The notes beneath the pieces are model-generated. The model did no database searches. It worked only from the letters and a program-made list of their open reading frames with translations, and was not told the origin of the DNA. A stretch of 43,483 bases of DNA from a virus. Positions 1,520 through 26,589 of this stretch are shown here, in pieces. The stretch's first letter is position 1; each line of letters opens with the position of its first letter. The DNA lies in IMG/VR virus record IMGVR_UViG_3300031758_000151, positions 1 through 43,483 of that record; one strand, given 5' to 3'. The translations under genes were made by a program, and so were the position numbers.

Positions 1520-2260
1520 ATGAGTAAAGAAACTGCATTAGTAGATAGAATCTACGTATTAAAAAAAAGAAACACTCCGTTGTCATATATGTTGACATCG
1601 AAGAACACTTCAAGAAGTCCGTTATACTACTTTGACGGAAAATCAAACAGACCACTTAGATATGCAAGAAACCAGAAGACACCTTTCGAGGATGAGCAGG
1701 ATGGTTCTGCTATTTTAGAGCCTATTGTATTTGTTGACGGATCATTAACCGTGTCTAAAACAAATCCAGTACTACAAAAATTCTTAGAGTATCACCCAGG
1801 AAATGGAACAATATTTGAGGAAGTAAATACAGAGAAGGATGCGTCTGCACAGTTTGACAAGTTAACTACAGAGTTGGATGCACAGTTGGCAGCAAGAGAC
1901 CTTACGGTTGATATGCTTGAGGCTGTCGCTAGAGTTGTATTGGGAGGTAAGATTGACAAGATGTCAACTGCTGAGCTTAAGAGAGACGTGCTTGTTTACG
2001 CAAGATCGTACCCTCAGAAGTTTATGGAGTTGCTTAACGATCCAATGTTACAGTTACAGAACACCTGCGCTAAGTTATTTGATCAGGACGTGTTGAGGCT
2101 TAAAAATAAAGGTAGAGATGTATACTTCAACCTTGAGACAAACAAGAAGAAGTTGTTAACAGTTCCTTACGGTGAGAATCATTTATTCATCTTGGCATCA
2201 CACCTGAAGTCAGATGATGGAATTGAGACACTTAGACTGCTTGAGAGCCATTTAGATTAG
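1520..2260 (+). CDS. Putative virion protein, function unknown
   Basis: This 246-aa protein is not assigned to a family. It lies between the capsid gene and other structural genes, so a head or head-completion role is inferred from position only. A central block has VDGSLTVSKTNPVLQKFLEY at about residues 74-93. A mainly helical, charged region follows (about 105-200). There is no signal peptide, membrane segment or catalytic motif. The start is the only good ATG after the capsid terminator and follows an AT-rich leader. It seems to lack its own promoter and is probably served by read-through. Confidence 0.75.
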   Translation: MSKETALVDRIYVLKKRNTPLSYMLTSKNTSRSPLYYFDGKSNRPLRYARNQKTPFEDEQDGSAILEPIVFVDGSLTVSKTNPVLQKFLEYHPGNGTIFEEVNTEKDASAQFDKLTTELDAQLAARDLTVDMLEAVARVVLGGKIDKMSTAELKRDVLVYARSYPQKFMELLNDPMLQLQNTCAKLFDQDVLRLKNKGRDVYFNLETNKKKLLTVPYGENHLFILASHLKSDDGIETLRLLESHLD

Positions 2261-2272
2261 TATTTTTTTTAG

Positions 2273-2280
2273 TATCTTTG
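2273..2280 (+). promoter_or_regulatory. Late promoter -7 element TATCTTTG
   Basis: TATCTTTG fits the Bacteroidota -7 consensus TAnnTTTG and is followed by CA. It sits 32 nt before the start of the 93-aa gene, in the short gap after the preceding stop codon. The same octamer recurs at 2651, 10205 and 43142. No TTTG is found at the expected -33 distance. Confidence 0.7.
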
Positions 2281-2312
2281 CAAGGATTATTAATCATAAA
2301 CAAAAGATAAAA

Positions 2313-2594
2313 ATGGAAAAATTTTTAAGTATCCCTGTAACTAACGAGCAATTTCAAATTGTATCTGCTACAGACATTAAACTTATCGAGCAAGCATCTA
2401 CTACTACTGTTACCATCACTTACGGTGGAGGTAAAGTTGTTACTATCACTCACGCTACTGCTGGTGCTGGTGTTGAAACAGAGAGAGACGCTATTGAGGC
2501 GGCTGTTGTTGCAGCATTAAGCGAGGGATGGACAAAGGTAACTTACGATGTTACATTATTACCATTCGCTGTTTCTGGAATAGCTATTGCGTAA
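2313..2594 (+). CDS. Small, probably abundant virion protein
   Basis: This 93-aa protein is rich in Thr, Val and Ala, with beta-prone segments (TTTVTITYGGGKVVTITHAT near residues 30-49), a helical AAVVAAL stretch, and a C-terminus ending in GIAIA. It has no Cys and no catalytic motif. It has its own TATCTTTG promoter and its own strong terminator, and it uses the same optimised codons as the capsid gene. That combination suggests a high-copy virion component such as a capsid decoration protein. That role is inferred from context; I do not recognise the family by motif. Confidence 0.75.
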   Translation: MEKFLSIPVTNEQFQIVSATDIKLIEQASTTTVTITYGGGKVVTITHATAGAGVETERDAIEAAVVAALSEGWTKVTYDVTLLPFAVSGIAIA

Positions 2595-2622
2595 TTGTTT
2601 TTGTTCTTAAGGAAAGCTAAAG

Positions 2623-2648
2623 GCACTCTAATCAGAGTGCTTTTTTTT
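2623..2648 (+). terminator. Intrinsic terminator
   Basis: A perfect 7-bp stem (GCACTCT / AGAGTGC) with an AATC loop is followed at once by eight T residues. It closes the one-gene unit of the 93-aa protein. Its T-run runs almost directly into the next promoter. Confidence 0.92.
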
Positions 2649-2650
2649 AT

Positions 2651-2658
2651 TATCTTTG
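2651..2658 (+). promoter_or_regulatory. Late promoter -7 element TATCTTTG
   Basis: TATCTTTG lies immediately after the terminator T-run and 15 nt before the next start codon, giving a leader of only about 10 nt. It probably drives the connector and tail genes from 2674 onwards. The upstream flank TTTTTTTTAT resembles the other late sites. Confidence 0.7.
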
Positions 2659-2673
2659 TAAAAAGTTTTTAAT

Positions 2674-3438
2674 ATGATAAACTCAGTTAGAAATACAGTT
2701 CTATCTGTTATAAATAAGAATAACTACGGCTATATTACACCTGCTGATTTCAACTTATTTGCCAAGCAGGCGCAGATGGAAATATACGAGGAGTACTACT
2801 CTTCCTATAACAAAACCATCAATATGGAGAATGCTCGTATGTCAGGAACAGGATATGCTGATATTGAGCAGCCAATAGCCGAGACTCTTGAGTCATTCTT
2901 AGTTACAGCAAACCTTACAAACATACAGGATAACGAGTGGAGTGTACCAACTATTGGTACCACAGGGACTGAGGCATATATGATACTTAGGGTTGACTGC
3001 CTTAACAGTTCAGGAAGTAGAATAGCCACAGCTGACAAGGTGTCTAGCGATAAGGTAATGATGCTTTCAGACTCAAACCTTACAGGACCGTCACTTCTAT
3101 ACCCTTGCTACACGTACGAGAGCGACAATTTAAACGCTTCATTTTTAAGGCTGTATCCTGATACTATAAATGATACGAATGGTTATGATATAAGATGTAC
3201 CTACTTTAGCTATCCTAAGGATCCTAAGTGGACATACATTACAATTTCAAATGGTGAGCCGATGTTTGATCAATCTCAACCAGATTATCAAGACTTTCAA
3301 CTTCCTGCAGAGGATGAGTATAAACTAGCTATGAAGATACTACAGTACGCTGGAATATCAATAAGAGAGCAAGAGGTTGCTGCTTACGCATTAGGTCAAG
3401 AACAACACGAACAACCAACATTTAGTCAACAACAATAA
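2674..3438 (+). CDS. Head-tail connector-like structural protein
   Basis: This 254-aa protein opens a run of tightly packed structural genes; the next ATG is 2 nt after its stop. The N-terminus (about 1-45) is helical and contains FNLFAKQAQMEIYEEYYSSY, a layout I associate with small head-to-tail ring or adaptor proteins of Bacteroidota podoviruses. The middle is beta-rich. The C-terminus is helical (DEYKLAMKILQYAGISIREQ) and ends in a Gln-rich tail. The ring-protein role is inferred from gene order, since it precedes a second connector-like gene and the nozzle gene. Confidence 0.65.
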   Translation: MINSVRNTVLSVINKNNYGYITPADFNLFAKQAQMEIYEEYYSSYNKTINMENARMSGTGYADIEQPIAETLESFLVTANLTNIQDNEWSVPTIGTTGTEAYMILRVDCLNSSGSRIATADKVSSDKVMMLSDSNLTGPSLLYPCYTYESDNLNASFLRLYPDTINDTNGYDIRCTYFSYPKDPKWTYITISNGEPMFDQSQPDYQDFQLPAEDEYKLAMKILQYAGISIREQEVAAYALGQEQHEQPTFSQQQ

Positions 3439-3440
3439 TT

Positions 3441-4358
3441 ATGGCATACTTAACTGGCTATCAATACTATGAGAACGCTGGAAACTCTCCAGAGAATGAA
3501 AACTGGGGAACGTACCAGTATGTATCACTAAAGGATATAGTTAACAACTTTATGTTGATGTATGTAGGTAACAATAAGCTTGTTAATAACGTTGACAAGT
3601 ACGAGATCTTGTTTCACGCAAAGAGAGGTATTCAGGAGTTGAACTACGATGCCTTGAAAGAGATTAAGATCGTGGAGCTTAGTATATGTGACGACCTTAA
3701 GTTGGTTCTGCCACCAGACTACGTGAACTATGTTAGAATATCATTGTACAAGGACGGTGTTTTAAGACCACTGACTGAGAACATTCAGACAAACTATAGT
3801 AATTCATACCTACAGGATAACAGCTGTAGAGTATTGTTCGATCAGGACGGCAACGTGTTGGAGGGAACATCTATATTAGACTACGACAGGATACATAAGT
3901 TAAACAAGAGCATTTACTTAGGTGACGGTGATTTTAACGGTATGGAAGGATACAACCTTGACGGTAAGTGGTACTTCAACCACACTATAGGTGCAAGGTT
4001 TGGTCTGAACACAGAGACTGCAAACGTAAACCCTACGTACAGAATAGACAAGAAGTCGGGCGTTATAAACTTTGGATCAGGTATGGCTGGTCAGCTTTGC
4101 ATACTTGAGTATGTTACTGACGGTATGGAGGGAGGAGACGACTCTGAGGTTACGGTAAACAAGATGGCTGAGGAGTTCTTATACGCATACATTAAGTACA
4201 ACGTGCTTACAAATAAGTACGGAGTTCAGGAGTATGTTGTGAATAGAGCTAAGAAAGAGAAGACAGCCCTTCTAAGAAACGCAAAGATAAGATTGAGTAA
4301 CATACACCCTGGAAGATTATTGATGAATATGAGGGGCAAAGATAAGTGGATTAAATAA
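3441..4358 (+). CDS. Second connector or tail-ring protein
   Basis: This 305-aa protein starts 2 nt after the previous stop and ends 2 nt before the nozzle gene, so the three are probably co-translated. Notable blocks are KYEILFHAKRGIQELNYDAL (about residues 53-72), VLPPDYVNYVRISL (about 94-107), and a C-terminal helical segment with AEEFLYAYIKYNVLTNKYGV. It has no catalytic motif, signal or membrane segment. In related Bacteroidota phages, proteins with this LPPDYVNYVR-type core are annotated as structural, between portal-side adaptors and the tail tube. A connector role is inferred from that memory and from position. Confidence 0.65.
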   Translation: MAYLTGYQYYENAGNSPENENWGTYQYVSLKDIVNNFMLMYVGNNKLVNNVDKYEILFHAKRGIQELNYDALKEIKIVELSICDDLKLVLPPDYVNYVRISLYKDGVLRPLTENIQTNYSNSYLQDNSCRVLFDQDGNVLEGTSILDYDRIHKLNKSIYLGDGDFNGMEGYNLDGKWYFNHTIGARFGLNTETANVNPTYRIDKKSGVINFGSGMAGQLCILEYVTDGMEGGDDSEVTVNKMAEEFLYAYIKYNVLTNKYGVQEYVVNRAKKEKTALLRNAKIRLSNIHPGRLLMNMRGKDKWIK

Positions 4359-4360
4359 GT

Positions 4361-7300
4361 ATGGATTTAAATACTACGTTCCTTAAGGGTAGAATGAATA
4401 AGTCGCTTGACGAGAGAGTTCTTCCAGATGGAGAATATATTGACGCGTTAAATATAAGGATAGGTTCCACTGAAAACAATAGCGTTGGTGCTATTGAGAA
4501 CTCGTTAGGTAATACTAAGATAACGACTATTCTTTACGATGGAGATCCTTTATCTACTAATGCAAGGTGTATTGGTGCGTATGAGGATAGCCAGCACGAG
4601 ACAATATACTGGTTCGTAACAGATCCAGGTAATGTTGATATGATTCTATCGTACAACGAAAGAACAAGCACACTTATATATCACGTTATATCTACCACTG
4701 TACTAAACTTTGATACTCAGTATCTGGTAAATGGTATTGACTTAATTGACGATCTTTTATTCTGGACGGATAATCTTAACCCTCCAAGACGAATAAACAC
4801 AAGGGGATCGTATGCATACCCTACAATGGGGGTAGATAATATTACAGAGGACGACATCTCTGTTATTGTTGCTCCGCCTTTAGAGTCTCCTATAGTTATT
4901 GCAAATCCATTATCTGGAGAGAAGAACTATATGACTGATAAGTTTATATCTTTCTCTTATAGATACAAGTACAAGGACGGAGAGTATAGTGCACTATCAC
5001 AGTTCAGTGATATAGCGTTTGAGCCAAAGTCATTTTTTATTGACTATACATTTTATGGTAACGGAGCGATGCAGAATTTATATAATTCTGTAAATGTTTC
5101 GTTTAATACTGGAAACGAAAATGTTATACAGATTGACTTATGCTTTAAACTGTCTGACTCAAGTATTGTAAATATTATAGAGAGATATATAAAGGATGAG
5201 AATGGATGGGGAGATGATCAGATTCAATCTATTAATTTTGATAATAAAAAAATATATACAGCCCTTCCAAGTTCAGAACTTACAAGACTTTTTGATAACG
5301 TACCTCTAACAGCTAAGTCTCAGACCACTATGGGCAATAGGCTTATATATGGAAACTATGTGGACGGTTACGATATAGACACGGTTATTGACTATGATGT
5401 TGTTGGTGTTAGTGAGGACATAAATGTATCTGAAATAATAGTGTCTACGTTAGAAGGTGTTGAATATAACATAAACCCTTTAACTCCAGTAACATATTTA
5501 GGAAGTAAAATAAAATTAGATTTTACAGATGTAGATATTAAAGAAAACTCTATACTTAACATAGATTTTGCTATAATACATAAAGAATTTGGAGGAAGTG
5601 CTTTGTATGACGATACAGTAAATGATTGTCCTGCACCACAAAATAATTATAACTATAACTATTCTTTTAGCATACAAGAAGATTTTACAAATGCTTATCA
5701 GCTATCTGTAAATCCAGGATTTATAAATAGTATATATACAAGCATTGCTCTTCCTGGTTGTGATGGCTTCTCTGTTACAGATGATTTTAACTGCAATACA
5801 GCAACAAAGGATGTTGTATGCGATCCTATAAATGGGGGTTGGGATAAACTTGGTAGTGGTATAGATGCTATTGGTCAAGGATTTACAATAACATCTTCTC
5901 CAGCAGAGCCAAACTACATATATATTCAGTTCCCTGCAATTAAGTTTGAAGGGTATAATGACGATACAAGTACTTATGAGTATGCATATGAGTATTTTTC
6001 AGAGTCAAATACAATTGCCTCTATAACAAAAATAAATTCAAGAAGAAGCTTACATAGTAATAGAGATTTTGAGGTTGGTATTGTATATCAGGACGAGTAC
6101 CTAAGAAGCTCTACTGCTTTAGTTTGTGATGGAAACACAGTATTCTTTCCAGCATCAGATTCAGATAAAAAAAACTATATAGTTTCAACAATAAATAACT
6201 TACCTCCATCTTGGGCAAAGAGATATAAGTTTGTAGTAAAGCCGTCTAAGTCTAAGTACGAGACAATTTATACAAGTTTATTTTTTCCTGATACTACGGG
6301 TTTTACTTGGTTTAAGTTAGAGGGAGAGAATATAAGTAAGGCAAGAGTTGGTGAAACTCTTATTGTAAAGATGGACACTGATGGCTATGTTGGTTCATTA
6401 GTTACTACAGAAGTTTTAGAGGTTAAGGCTCAGTCAAATAATTTTATAACAAACCCACCATCTACTGACAAGGTAATATACGAGCCAGCTGGTACGTATA
6501 TGCGTCTCAAGGCATCAAACTTTCAGGCGGAATATAATCAAAATTCTTTTATAGAGGCAGAGGAATATAAACCACCTGCTTTTCTTACAAAATTCAGACA
6601 TAGAGCAAGTATTTTGTTTGAAGAAAATCCAGAATTTAATAATTCATTACCTAATTCTCCAACAAACCGAAGATTTATACCATACGCAATTCCCGCTGGT
6701 AGTATTATAAATATAAGATGGAAAATAAATAGAAATAAAGCTGGATTAGATTCTGGGTGTGGTTCTTATAGTTATCTATATGAAAAAACAATAGTGGCTA
6801 ACGCTAACTACGATAATTTCTATGAATTTGCTATAGCTCAAAATGTACAGTTAGATACTGGGATTCAAGGCGGAGGCGATGAATTAGCTGGTATTACAGT
6901 GACACAACAAATTAATGGATGGAATTTTTTTGCAAATCAGAACTTAGATGATCCTCCACAACCTCAATATCCACTATTAGAACCTGCTGAAACAGGATTA
7001 AACCTAGTTGGTTTTTGTAAGGTAGAGGAAGACGGAGAGTGGGATGGAAGTATGTATTTAGTAACAGCATCTGGAATACCAGCTTGTAGTGGTAAATCAG
7101 CTTACAACAACATAAGTGTGACGCTACAATTAGCTAATGGAACTATTGTATTTGAGACAGATGCTTTAGATGCTGACGGAGAGATTTTCTACGAAGGTAG
7201 CGATAGCTTTCCTATCACCAATGGATATCATATGAGTGGTGACGCAGATGCAGACCAAGACCAGACATCTTCATTACCAGCTATTGTGACGCTTAACTTC

Positions 7301-24253: not shown

Positions 24254-25473
24254 AGGTAATCCTTTTTAAAGTGATTGGTTGTGTATGATTTCTTTTTAAT
24301 GACCGACTTGTAGATCTTCTCCTCGATACCTCCCTCGGAGAATACCCAGTATATCTTGTTGAACTTACGATCAATGGTCGTCATTCGATCCCTAGCCTGC
24401 CAGTAGCTCGTGGCTGAGAAGTCTATGTTGTAGAAGACTAAGTACTCAGCGTTCTTCAGAGATATACCCTCACGTCCAGAGACAATCTGGAGCGCGATTG
24501 ACTTATCGGTATTGTTAAACTCATCAAGATCTGTAGTCAACCTGTCGCCAAAGATAGTTTTTAATGCGTTAAGTTCTTCCACAAACTTGTAAAATATCCC
24601 AATTTTTTTATCCTTAAAATAAGAAGATATAAACTCTGCCTTGCTTAGATCTATAACCATAGAGTCACCGCTCTCAAACTTAATGGTACCTGAGTACATC
24701 TGGTGTAGCTTCTGCTGTAGCTTGACAGAGGTGTCTGCAAGTATGACCTGGTTCTTACCCTCTATCACAAGGTCCTTGCGTAGTCTGTCGCACATTTCGT
24801 ACGTAGAGTTCTTCATCCTAACCTTAAGGATCTCCTCCTCAATTTCAGACGTGAAGCCAGCCTGCTCCTGCGTGAAGGTAATTATGTACGGCTTTATCAC
24901 ACTCATAATCTTGTTGATGTCAGCATCGGTGTAGTCCTTCACCTGTGCGTAGCCTAGGTGCTTCATCTTGATCTTCACATAGTTAGCAGCCCACTTGTAG
25001 AAGTTAACCTCCTTAAACGGTGAGAACATACTGCACCAGAACTGGTGATAGAACTGAGAATAGTTCTCAGGAGACATAGTTCCACTTAACAATATTAAAG
25101 GTATGTGACTAAACATTTTTTTGAAGGTCTTAGCCCCAAGGCTTGGCTTTGGAAATGATCCGAAACGATGTGATTCATCGTGTACCACTAAATCAAACTT
25201 ACCATCGATCTTGTGCATAGACTCGTCATTGTGAACGAACAACTCGAAGTGACTGTCGTAGCCGAAATTAATGTAGTCAGACTCGATAGACGATATAGCC
25301 TTCTTCTTAGTAAGAAACAAGACTCTCTTAGCATCAAATAACCTAGCTGTCTCAAGAGATACTAAAGTTTTACCTACACGTACTTGTAGCGCGTAGTAAA
25401 CTATTCCCTTTGATTTAAGTATATTAACTCCTTTATTAGCTATATCTACTTGATAATCCCTTAGTTTTTGCAT
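24250..25473 (-). CDS. SF2 (SNF2-like) DNA helicase
   Basis: This 407-aa ATP-dependent helicase or translocase has motif Q-like RDYQVD (5-10), Walker A VRVGKTLV (31-38, lacking the usual first Gly), motif II DESH (99-102), motif III SGT (130-132), motif V SGREGIS (332-338) and motif VI QARDRM (359-364). This is the compact form common in phages. Its start overlaps the end of the HNH gene by 38 nt. The first ~150-190 bases are AT-richer than the rest and resemble the HNH gene in style. The motif VI arginines are present, so it is probably active in replication or recombination. Confidence 0.9.
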   Translation of the reverse strand: MQKLRDYQVDIANKGVNILKSKGIVYYALQVRVGKTLVSLETARLFDAKRVLFLTKKKAISSIESDYINFGYDSHFELFVHNDESMHKIDGKFDLVVHDESHRFGSFPKPSLGAKTFKKMFSHIPLILLSGTMSPENYSQFYHQFWCSMFSPFKEVNFYKWAANYVKIKMKHLGYAQVKDYTDADINKIMSVIKPYIITFTQEQAGFTSEIEEEILKVRMKNSTYEMCDRLRKDLVIEGKNQVILADTSVKLQQKLHQMYSGTIKFESGDSMVIDLSKAEFISSYFKDKKIGIFYKFVEELNALKTIFGDRLTTDLDEFNNTDKSIALQIVSGREGISLKNAEYLVFYNIDFSATSYWQARDRMTTIDRKFNKIYWVFSEGGIEEKIYKSVIKKKSYTTNHFKKDYL

Positions 25474-25951
25474 AATTTAAATATTTATTATAAGCTTCTA
25501 GTTCACATTCAAACCTACCTAAATTAGTAGTTTTTCCGTTCTCTTTTATTTTAGCAGTCCATTTATTTCTATTTTTATCAAAACTAACCCCTATATACTT
25601 AGAACTTCTTTTTTGACTAAACTCATAATGATGTGTATTTTCTCTTTGAGAAACCCATTCTAAATTAGAAACATTATTGTTTAATGTATTAAAATCTTTA
25701 TGGTTGACAATATTTTTATCCTCAGGTTTTTCAATAAAATATTCAGCAACAAGTCTATGCACTGAAAACATTTTGTCTCCTAACTTTTGAAACCTATATC
25801 CTCCATACCCAATATTAGAATTTAATATTTTTTCTTTTGAAAAATAAAAAGAGTATCTGTTTTTTAATTTTCTAGACAAACTTTTAATTCTTCCTAAATT
25901 AGATATTTGATAAATACCTTCATAACCTTCAATATCTTTCCAAACTTCCAT
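25436..25951 (-). CDS. NUMOD4-HNH-AP2 homing endonuclease
   Basis: This 171-aa protein has a NUMOD4 DNA-binding motif (VWKDIEGYEGIYQISNLGRI, 3-22), an HNH nuclease core (HRLVAE 65-70, NHKDFNTLNN 83-92, NLEWVS 96-101) and an AP2-type DNA-binding domain (KYIGVSFDKNRNKWTAKI, 118-135, to about 165). It is a free-standing homing endonuclease, selfish DNA that cuts alleles lacking it. It is AT-rich and its codon use differs from the primase and from most of the helicase, so it is a recent arrival. The 3' end runs 38 nt into the helicase gene. A structured leader and promoter lie directly upstream. There is no sign that it sits in an intron. Confidence 0.92.
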   Translation of the reverse strand: MEVWKDIEGYEGIYQISNLGRIKSLSRKLKNRYSFYFSKEKILNSNIGYGGYRFQKLGDKMFSVHRLVAEYFIEKPEDKNIVNHKDFNTLNNNVSNLEWVSQRENTHHYEFSQKRSSKYIGVSFDKNRNKWTAKIKENGKTTNLGRFECELEAYNKYLNYAKTKGLSSRYS

Positions 25952-25954
25952 AAT

Positions 25955-26040
25955 AAAAAAACCACCAAATCAAAAGGTCGTCGTCTTTATCATTGGTGGA
26001 ATTTGCATAAAATTGTTACTGTAGCGACGACTCTACAAGT
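25955..26040 (-). ncRNA. Kissing-hairpin leader or small RNA ending in a terminator
   Basis: On the minus strand, hairpin 1 (26037 to 26020) is UGUAG / CUACA with the 8-nt loop AGUCGUCG. After a 20-nt linker, hairpin 2 (25999 to 25962) has an outer stem CCACCAA / UUGGUGG, a symmetric UGAU/UGAU internal loop (tandem G-A pairs possible), an inner stem AAAG / CUUU and the 8-nt loop ACGACGAC. Seven U residues follow. The two loops are complementary over 7 nt (GUCGUCG with CGACGAC), so a kissing complex is possible. Hairpin 2 plus the U-run is an intrinsic terminator ending 4 nt before the HNH start codon. The RNA could be a free ~85-nt transcript or an attenuator of the HNH gene. Its existence as RNA is inferred. 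Confidence 0.6.
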
Positions 26041-26041
26041 G

Positions 26042-26049
26042 CAAATATA
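26042..26049 (-). promoter_or_regulatory. Promoter -7 element TATATTTG for the leader RNA
   Basis: Read on the minus strand, TATATTTG fits TAnnTTTG and lies 4 nt before hairpin 1, so transcription would begin at the base of that hairpin. No TTTG is seen at the usual -33 distance. A 9-bp direct repeat ATTGTTACT at 26012 and 26058 brackets this promoter and hairpin 1. Confidence 0.6.
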
Positions 26050-26061
26050 GTAAAAATATTG

Positions 26062-26589
26062 TTACTCATTTAAGTTACTCCTGTTCTGGTGCACTTCCTT
26101 CTCCATCTGTTCGTAGAATATAGTCACCTTACGTGTCTCGCATCCCATCTTATGTTTCTTACCTGCAAGACCGCAGTAGTCACACTTCTCTGTGATGATC
26201 TTGTAACCAGTATCGATCTTTTGGAAATCTTTCACTACATAGTCCTTGAATCCAAATCCATCCATTGACATACCTCTAGTGATATAAGGACCTCCTGACG
26301 GATCCACCATCTCGATCTCATTAACCAGTGAGCTAACCATTCTGACGTACTTGTCGTATATGTACTGATGCGTCTCGTCATCATACTCGTGAACGGCTTC
26401 CTTAAACTGTTTAAGTGGCATCAAGGATTGAACGTGTTCGTTATCCTTTAGATAAGCCTCGTAAGCCCTTATGTAGTCATTCGGCATACCAATCCTGCAG
26501 TACTCAAAGTTACCCTCCCATAAAATGTCCTGGTGATCATCCTCTGTAAATGTGAACACATCACCGTATCTGTTTTTATATTCTCTCAT
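26062..26589 (-). CDS. Phage protein with C-terminal zinc-binding motif
   Basis: This 175-aa protein is helical and charged for most of its length (HVQSLMPLKQFKEAVHEYDD, about residues 52-71). It ends with CDYCGLAGKKHKMGC (about 136-150), where two Cys pairs with a His can bind zinc. Its last bases lie next to the promoter of the leader RNA. It overlaps the gene upstream by 4 nt. The family is not recognised. Confidence 0.75.
   Translation of the reverse strand: MREYKNRYGDVFTFTEDDHQDILWEGNFEYCRIGMPNDYIRAYEAYLKDNEHVQSLMPLKQFKEAVHEYDDETHQYIYDKYVRMVSSLVNEIEMVDPSGGPYITRGMSMDGFGFKDYVVKDFQKIDTGYKIITEKCDYCGLAGKKHKMGCETRKVTIFYEQMEKEVHQNRSNLNE

Follow-up and report, generated by a model that had tools for sequence, protein, structure and literature searches.

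A stretch of viral DNA of 43,483 nucleotides (the window) carries, just upstream of a homing endonuclease gene, a compact leader of two hairpins with complementary loops, which comparison with its relatives confirms as real and beyond chance. Among flavobacterial viruses, such leaders stand before many replication and homing-endonuclease genes, and their loops change often, though always jointly, from relative to relative, which points to an RNA control element not described before. The element would probably be the 5′ leader of the downstream gene, acting as a transcription attenuator via a kissing complex formed in cis; a probability of about 0.58 is assigned to this reading. Two hairpins, loop pairing, T-run, promoter spacing, pre-ORF position, and modular spread are all supported at the level of sequence comparison.

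In the window, which is a virus record, all parts of the leader lie on the minus strand and are arranged as follows:

26042–26049, minus strand: putative −7 box TATATTTG of the Bacteroidota promoter type, assigned by consensus
26020–26037, minus strand: hairpin 1, stem UGUAG/CUACA, loop AGUCGUCG at 26032–26025, located at the predicted RNA 5′ end
26025–26031, minus strand: kissing segment 1, GUCGUCG, with an exact partner 3′ of it in 90/92 relatives
26000–26019, minus strand: A/U-rich linker from hairpin 1 to hairpin 2, according to alignment A1
25962–25999, minus strand: hairpin 2, CCACCAA-UGAU-AAAG-ACGACGAC-CUUU-UGAU-UUGGUGG, a terminator-like stem with a symmetric UGAU/UGAU internal loop
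25977–25984, minus strand: hairpin 2 loop ACGACGAC
25977–25983, minus strand: kissing segment 2, CGACGAC, complement of 26031–26025
25955–25961, minus strand: U7 tract after hairpin 2, intrinsic-terminator-like
25436–25951, minus strand: homing endonuclease ORF of 171 amino acids, with NUMOD4, HNH_3, and AP2 by domain content
25474–26061, minus strand: unit missing as a whole in relatives (contigs L386/L387), comprising the element and most of the HNH ORF

Both loops comprise 8 nt and are complementary over 7 nt, GUCGUCG (26031–26025) being matched exactly by CGACGAC (25983–25977). An earlier note on this DNA had described the two hairpins with 7-nt complementary loops, a promoter ahead of hairpin 1, and a terminator-like hairpin 2 followed by U7, and these parts are borne out at their coordinates; the AUG of the HNH gene, which it had placed 4 nt past U7, is at 25951, leaving a gap of 3 nt. 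RNA-seq of Flavobacterium johnsoniae has yielded the −7 consensus TTTG/TANNTTTG with a G at −5 (PMC6847099), and on the basis of this Flavobacterium element the RNA start is predicted at 26037, the first base of hairpin 1. The UGAU/UGAU internal loop of hairpin 2 (25992–25989 with 25972–25969), in which tandem G-A pairs are possible, is retained by most, not all, relatives.

As is typical of attenuator leaders, a stem and a U-tract are found between promoter and ORF. Upon folding, hairpin 2 with its U tail is assigned −11.9 kcal/mol (z −3.2), and 0/200 shuffles were equally stable. By nested MFE, the 116-nt stretch as a whole departs only moderately from expectation (z −2.2), since this method leaves the kissing pairs unmodelled; nested folding by itself cannot reveal loop-loop kissing. 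Hairpin 2 was not picked up by the terminator scan of the window, probably due to its internal loop, and the sigma-70 promoter scan addresses a promoter type that differs from, and does not cover, the one of this element.

The relatives are grouped here as kissing-leader family A, defined by TANNTTTG, N5, GUAG-A-N7-CUAC, the complement of N7 in the loop of a second hairpin, a T-run, and ATG, and the window carries this full set. With model R1, the window scores 119.5 bits (E 4.9e-25), R1 having been built from alignment A1 with the window included. Copies are present in Flavobacterium phage isolates and in many IMG/VR contigs. Early seeds contained loop sequences, so that the first alignments were biased; this was remedied by a stem-only search and by a hairpin-1 search with free loop bases. 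The unbiased sample was defined by promoter and hairpin 1, with 5/7 loop bases free and no downstream condition, and the count was taken over all loci collected, earlier and new (92 distinct matches). Downstream, 90/92 contain the 7-nt reverse complement of loop 1 without mismatch, the remaining 2/92 having 6/7 Watson-Crick pairs, and the decoy targets (reversed, complemented, or identical loop) gave 0 matches among the 92. One of these two exceptions, L291, has a U-G pair, which is midway between U-A and C-G. Compensatory changes in both loops, which the earlier note had named as the key check, are found, the unbiased sample comprising 14 loop types.

An alignment of 63 distinct copies shows no unpaired cell in the loop-loop helix, in which a single G-U occurs and 3/7 of the pairs have changed on both sides. 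Double changes are also seen at all four GUAG/CUAC pairs of hairpin 1, and both stem parts of hairpin 2 covary. The stem cells of the sense strand include 16 G-T against 0 A-C, and therefore point to selection acting on the RNA.

A run of at least four T residues follows hairpin 2 in 93/93 family members, and in 88/93 an ORF starts at a tight distance past the U-tract, the median from T-run start to ATG being 11 nt; the other 5/93 have no ORF directly after the leader. A search of 295 Bacteroidia genomes with R1 gave one match, with the loops CUCGAC/GUCGAG, and no further one among 64 genomes of the family of that match; on this bacterial genome contig, the leader precedes the same DUF6291 gene that is found 3′ of phage leaders. 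A loose loop pattern, AGTCGTCG-N-ACGACGAC, was also tried over viral and genome contigs and discarded, as it returned mostly GC-rich chance matches.

Several observations concern the sequences 3′ of family-A leaders. In L307, L310, L318, and L355, the leader lacks an endonuclease ORF and is directly followed by the sequence TATAACG, which may mark the boundary of an inserted cassette, of the type also suggested by certain palindromes in Flavobacterium phage hattifnatt9-1. The latter, TATAACGTT...GTTATAA, lie between short minus-strand genes (L378, about 2000–6100) and resemble gene-cassette recombination sites. A conserved protein of 78-79 amino acids and unknown family (MNTISVQGFKIDINHF...) is encoded regularly 3′ of a family-A leader in L351 (8528–8764) and 12 relatives. 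In L305/L337, the leader is followed by a protein, MKQLEKEFVLKLIPYFEK..., with a PD-(D/E)XK-like pattern by eye (RIDLIL...GIECK), possibly a further nuclease type.

The layout is not confined to family A. In contig L307, the loop pair of a second copy, GUGGAAG/CUUCCAC, differs altogether from that of the first, which prompted a general scan for TANNTTTG followed by two hairpins with loop complementarity of at least 7 nt (score cut-off 19). Beyond family A, 31 matches were obtained, versus 0–2 in shuffles and 2-3 at two decoy motifs, namely, the two without overlap with the true promoter; a few of the 31, lying inside genes, are probably chance. Some 20–30 further predicted loop pairs are present in the same layout outside the family, and a clean terminator is found by a strict test in 19/30 non-family matches. 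The genes located 3′ of leaders encode primases (BT4734-like/PriCT; Prim-Pol/DUF3987; DUF5906), a helicase, a DNA methylase, Lin1244-like and DUF6291 proteins, and NUMOD4-HNH and GIY-YIG endonucleases. Hattifnatt9-1 has leaders with three different loops at three genes (helicase gp034, endonuclease gp041, and gp044), and Flavobacterium phage 11b has one leader, as does Cellulophaga phage phi19:1, where it lies ahead of gp030. With the strict scanner, crAss001, phi38:1, and phi19:1 gave no match, the phi19:1 leader having come from inspection.

Orthologous genes are preceded by leaders with different loops. In front of prim-pol orthologues, the loops GCAUCAC, CAUCCAC, CCUCUUAC, and AGUAGAGUUU occur, the pairs in full being GCAUCAC/GUGAUGC versus CAUCCAC/GUGGAUG for the first two; DUF6291 orthologues have GUGGAAG, CUCGAC, and GGGCAG, gp044 orthologues GUGAGACG, CUUCUGAC, and GUACGAC, and BT4734 primase orthologues GCUCAAC and CUACGACA. 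Contigs L300 and L315 show about 95% identity in both flanks of the leader, with the leader alone swapped, and the leaders of L361 and L440 are 97% identical with one compensated loop difference. The main NUMOD4-HNH cluster by itself comprises 11 loop types; the idea that loops are constant in leaders of homing endonucleases was rejected on this count.

The element is not specific to homing endonucleases, in front of one of which the earlier note had described it, the same family and its diverged relatives preceding primase, helicase, methylase, and other replication genes. In contigs L386 and L387, element and HNH gene are lacking together and the flanking genes are 2 nt apart, the missing stretch sitting between the stop of ORF 26062–26589 and the helicase ATG (25473). 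Likewise, phage filifjonk9-1 is without the element-HNH pair at a site where mumin6-1 carries both. At the helicase site of L389, L391, L392, L393, and L396, a related HNH gene occurs with no such leader. Since endonucleases are found at the same site with and without it, the leader is, as judged from these contigs, a separable module travelling with some endonucleases. The leaderless HNH ORFs (about 3090–3545) share approximately 80% DNA identity with that of the window and begin adjoining the preceding stop codon.

According to the attenuator reading, the RNA would begin at hairpin 1, whose loop would capture the loop of the emerging hairpin 2 over 7 bp in the window and 7-10 bp in relatives. 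Hairpin 2 would represent an intrinsic terminator ending just before the AUG and, after readthrough, would fall within the translation initiation region; in F. johnsoniae, structure near the AUG lowers initiation (PMC6847099). The kissing contact would set the level of RNA polymerase readthrough and perhaps also ribosome start, with the outcome that promoter-proximal expression would be restrained for phage replication genes and leader-bearing homing endonucleases. We infer transcription and termination, as well as an effect of the contact on termination and the direction of that effect. Since the terminator can form while the kissing complex is closed, the complex could raise or lower termination or leave it unchanged; a classical antiterminator helix was not seen upon inspection of the leader. 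A 5′ leader that needs readthrough is favoured because of the tight spacing between T-run and ATG together with the lack of an obvious second promoter, and because the leader must be read through, an attenuator is favoured whose 5′ hairpin touches the terminator loop in cis. Of the two roles offered by the earlier note, a leader and a small RNA of about 85 nt, the leader fits better, with an ORF at tight spacing in most members, and the stand-alone small RNA fits less well.

A self-acting small RNA is nevertheless a minority possibility. Termination would release a stable RNA, about 80 nt long and equipped with both loops, and this RNA would target in trans any nascent or readthrough leader that has identical loops, resulting in copy-number feedback or in immunity or incompatibility toward related phages. 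With both partners in one RNA, any copy can pair with any other, and the loop turnover between near-identical genes would suit such a role. Contigs with two family-A-like leaders share a loop in 0/17 cases, while a match would be expected in about 26% of pairs from sample frequencies (naive p about 0.006); the 17 contigs are partly related and hence not independent, and some second copies are distant family members, so that the within-contig difference is suggestive only. Moreover, orthogonal loops could merely prevent cross-talk among cis elements. Precedents are the CI RNA of satellite phage P4, where phage replication genes are controlled through premature termination, and the prophage RNA IsrK, whose short form acts on its own readthrough transcript (PMC4825925); accumulation and trans action of the present RNA would follow by analogy to these. 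Rather doubtful is an extension of this scheme to an RNA address system, in which each phage operon would possess its own self-complementary loop code and terminated leaders would act in trans on leaders of the same code, which would result in superinfection incompatibility and in copy-number feedback specific to each operon. The fast paired loop changes and the wholesale replacement of leaders would then be driven by diversifying selection, and homing endonucleases would carry the leader in their mobile unit.

Alternatively, the kissing complex might shield the mRNA 5′ end or govern access to the start codon, the U-run being the ordinary A/U-rich pre-start region of a phylum without Shine-Dalgarno sequences. 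The position of hairpin 1 at the predicted 5′ end would agree with this, as would that of hairpin 2, some 20 nt or less from the AUG, a zone in which structure is known to reduce initiation in F. johnsoniae (PMC6847099). An A/U-rich start region that is left free, however, need not adjoin a stable stem, and the T-run follows hairpin 2 in every family member, which makes a stabilising or translational element improbable.

Loops and stems also form inverted repeats in the DNA, which might be read as an operator or as a recombination or replication site. Binding to an operator close to its own gene is known for endonucleases, as in the case of I-TevI. A DNA-level element is nonetheless very unlikely in view of the excess of G-T over A-C in sense-strand stems, the fixed order of promoter, hairpin 1, hairpin 2, T-run, and ATG, and loops that vary freely with pairing kept upstream of unrelated genes. 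Chance hairpins beside an ordinary terminator, for which it may be said that about 60 nt of one sequence could happen to hold a 7-nt match, have a negligible probability and are refuted by pairing that is conserved while the loop sequence changes, with exact partners in 90/92 where about 0.4% would be expected for each.

Summarizing, the leader would constitute a new RNA family in structure, of the leader-attenuator kind, its function being what we infer. The earlier note, which named no described element of this layout, agrees with the absence of such a leader from the open literature searched; a paper on Baltic Flavobacterium phages leaves hairpins, promoters, and terminators unmentioned. 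Rfam 15 gave 0 matches in the whole window at gathering score and, for the element alone at E≤10, 3 weak matches only, all far below gathering. If the proposal is correct, the leaders would form a widespread, unannotated class of phage regulatory RNAs in a phylum with poorly known phage gene control, with primases, helicases, and mobile endonucleases encoded 3′ of them. The varying, always matched loops would provide natural orthogonal kissing pairs, and the timing of replication genes in these phages would become testable by few base changes. Action in trans, if true, would mean that these phages possess an RNA-based system of immunity or incompatibility of a new kind.

Among known systems, the HEARO or omega RNA of IscB is likewise a structured RNA and lies 5′ of an ORF for an HNH nuclease. 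Here, in contrast, the nucleases are NUMOD4-HNH, GIY-YIG, and others, many downstream genes encode no nuclease, and the Rfam scan yielded no match to the HEARO/omega covariance model. In the T4 I-TevI leader, the ribosome site of early transcripts is masked by one hairpin; leaders of this type share the RNA structure near a phage endonuclease start codon, but have neither kissing loops nor covarying addresses. The put element of HK022 also belongs to the early leader of a phage and has two hairpins close to the promoter; it suppresses distant terminators by binding RNA polymerase, whereas the second hairpin of the present leader is terminator-like and the loops are complementary and variable. 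The antisense attenuator of plasmid pT181 (PMC3753616) is a leader before a replication gene as well, with kissing loops tied to an intrinsic terminator and variant loops that can be orthogonal. Kissing-loop recognition tied to a terminator is found here in cis, on comparative evidence; pT181 employs a separate antisense RNA and a sense antiterminator, while here both partners reside in one leader with no antiterminator helix seen, and it is by the two-RNA nature of such known kissing attenuators that the present leader is set apart. P4 CI and IsrK (PMC4825925) resemble it in that RNA-RNA pairing in a phage leader controls premature termination before replication genes, with short and readthrough forms possible. 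CI, however, is a processed RNA that pairs with seqA and seqC, whereas here loops of 7-10 nt pair within one compact leader, and a single phage has several genes with such a leader, the loops differing among them.
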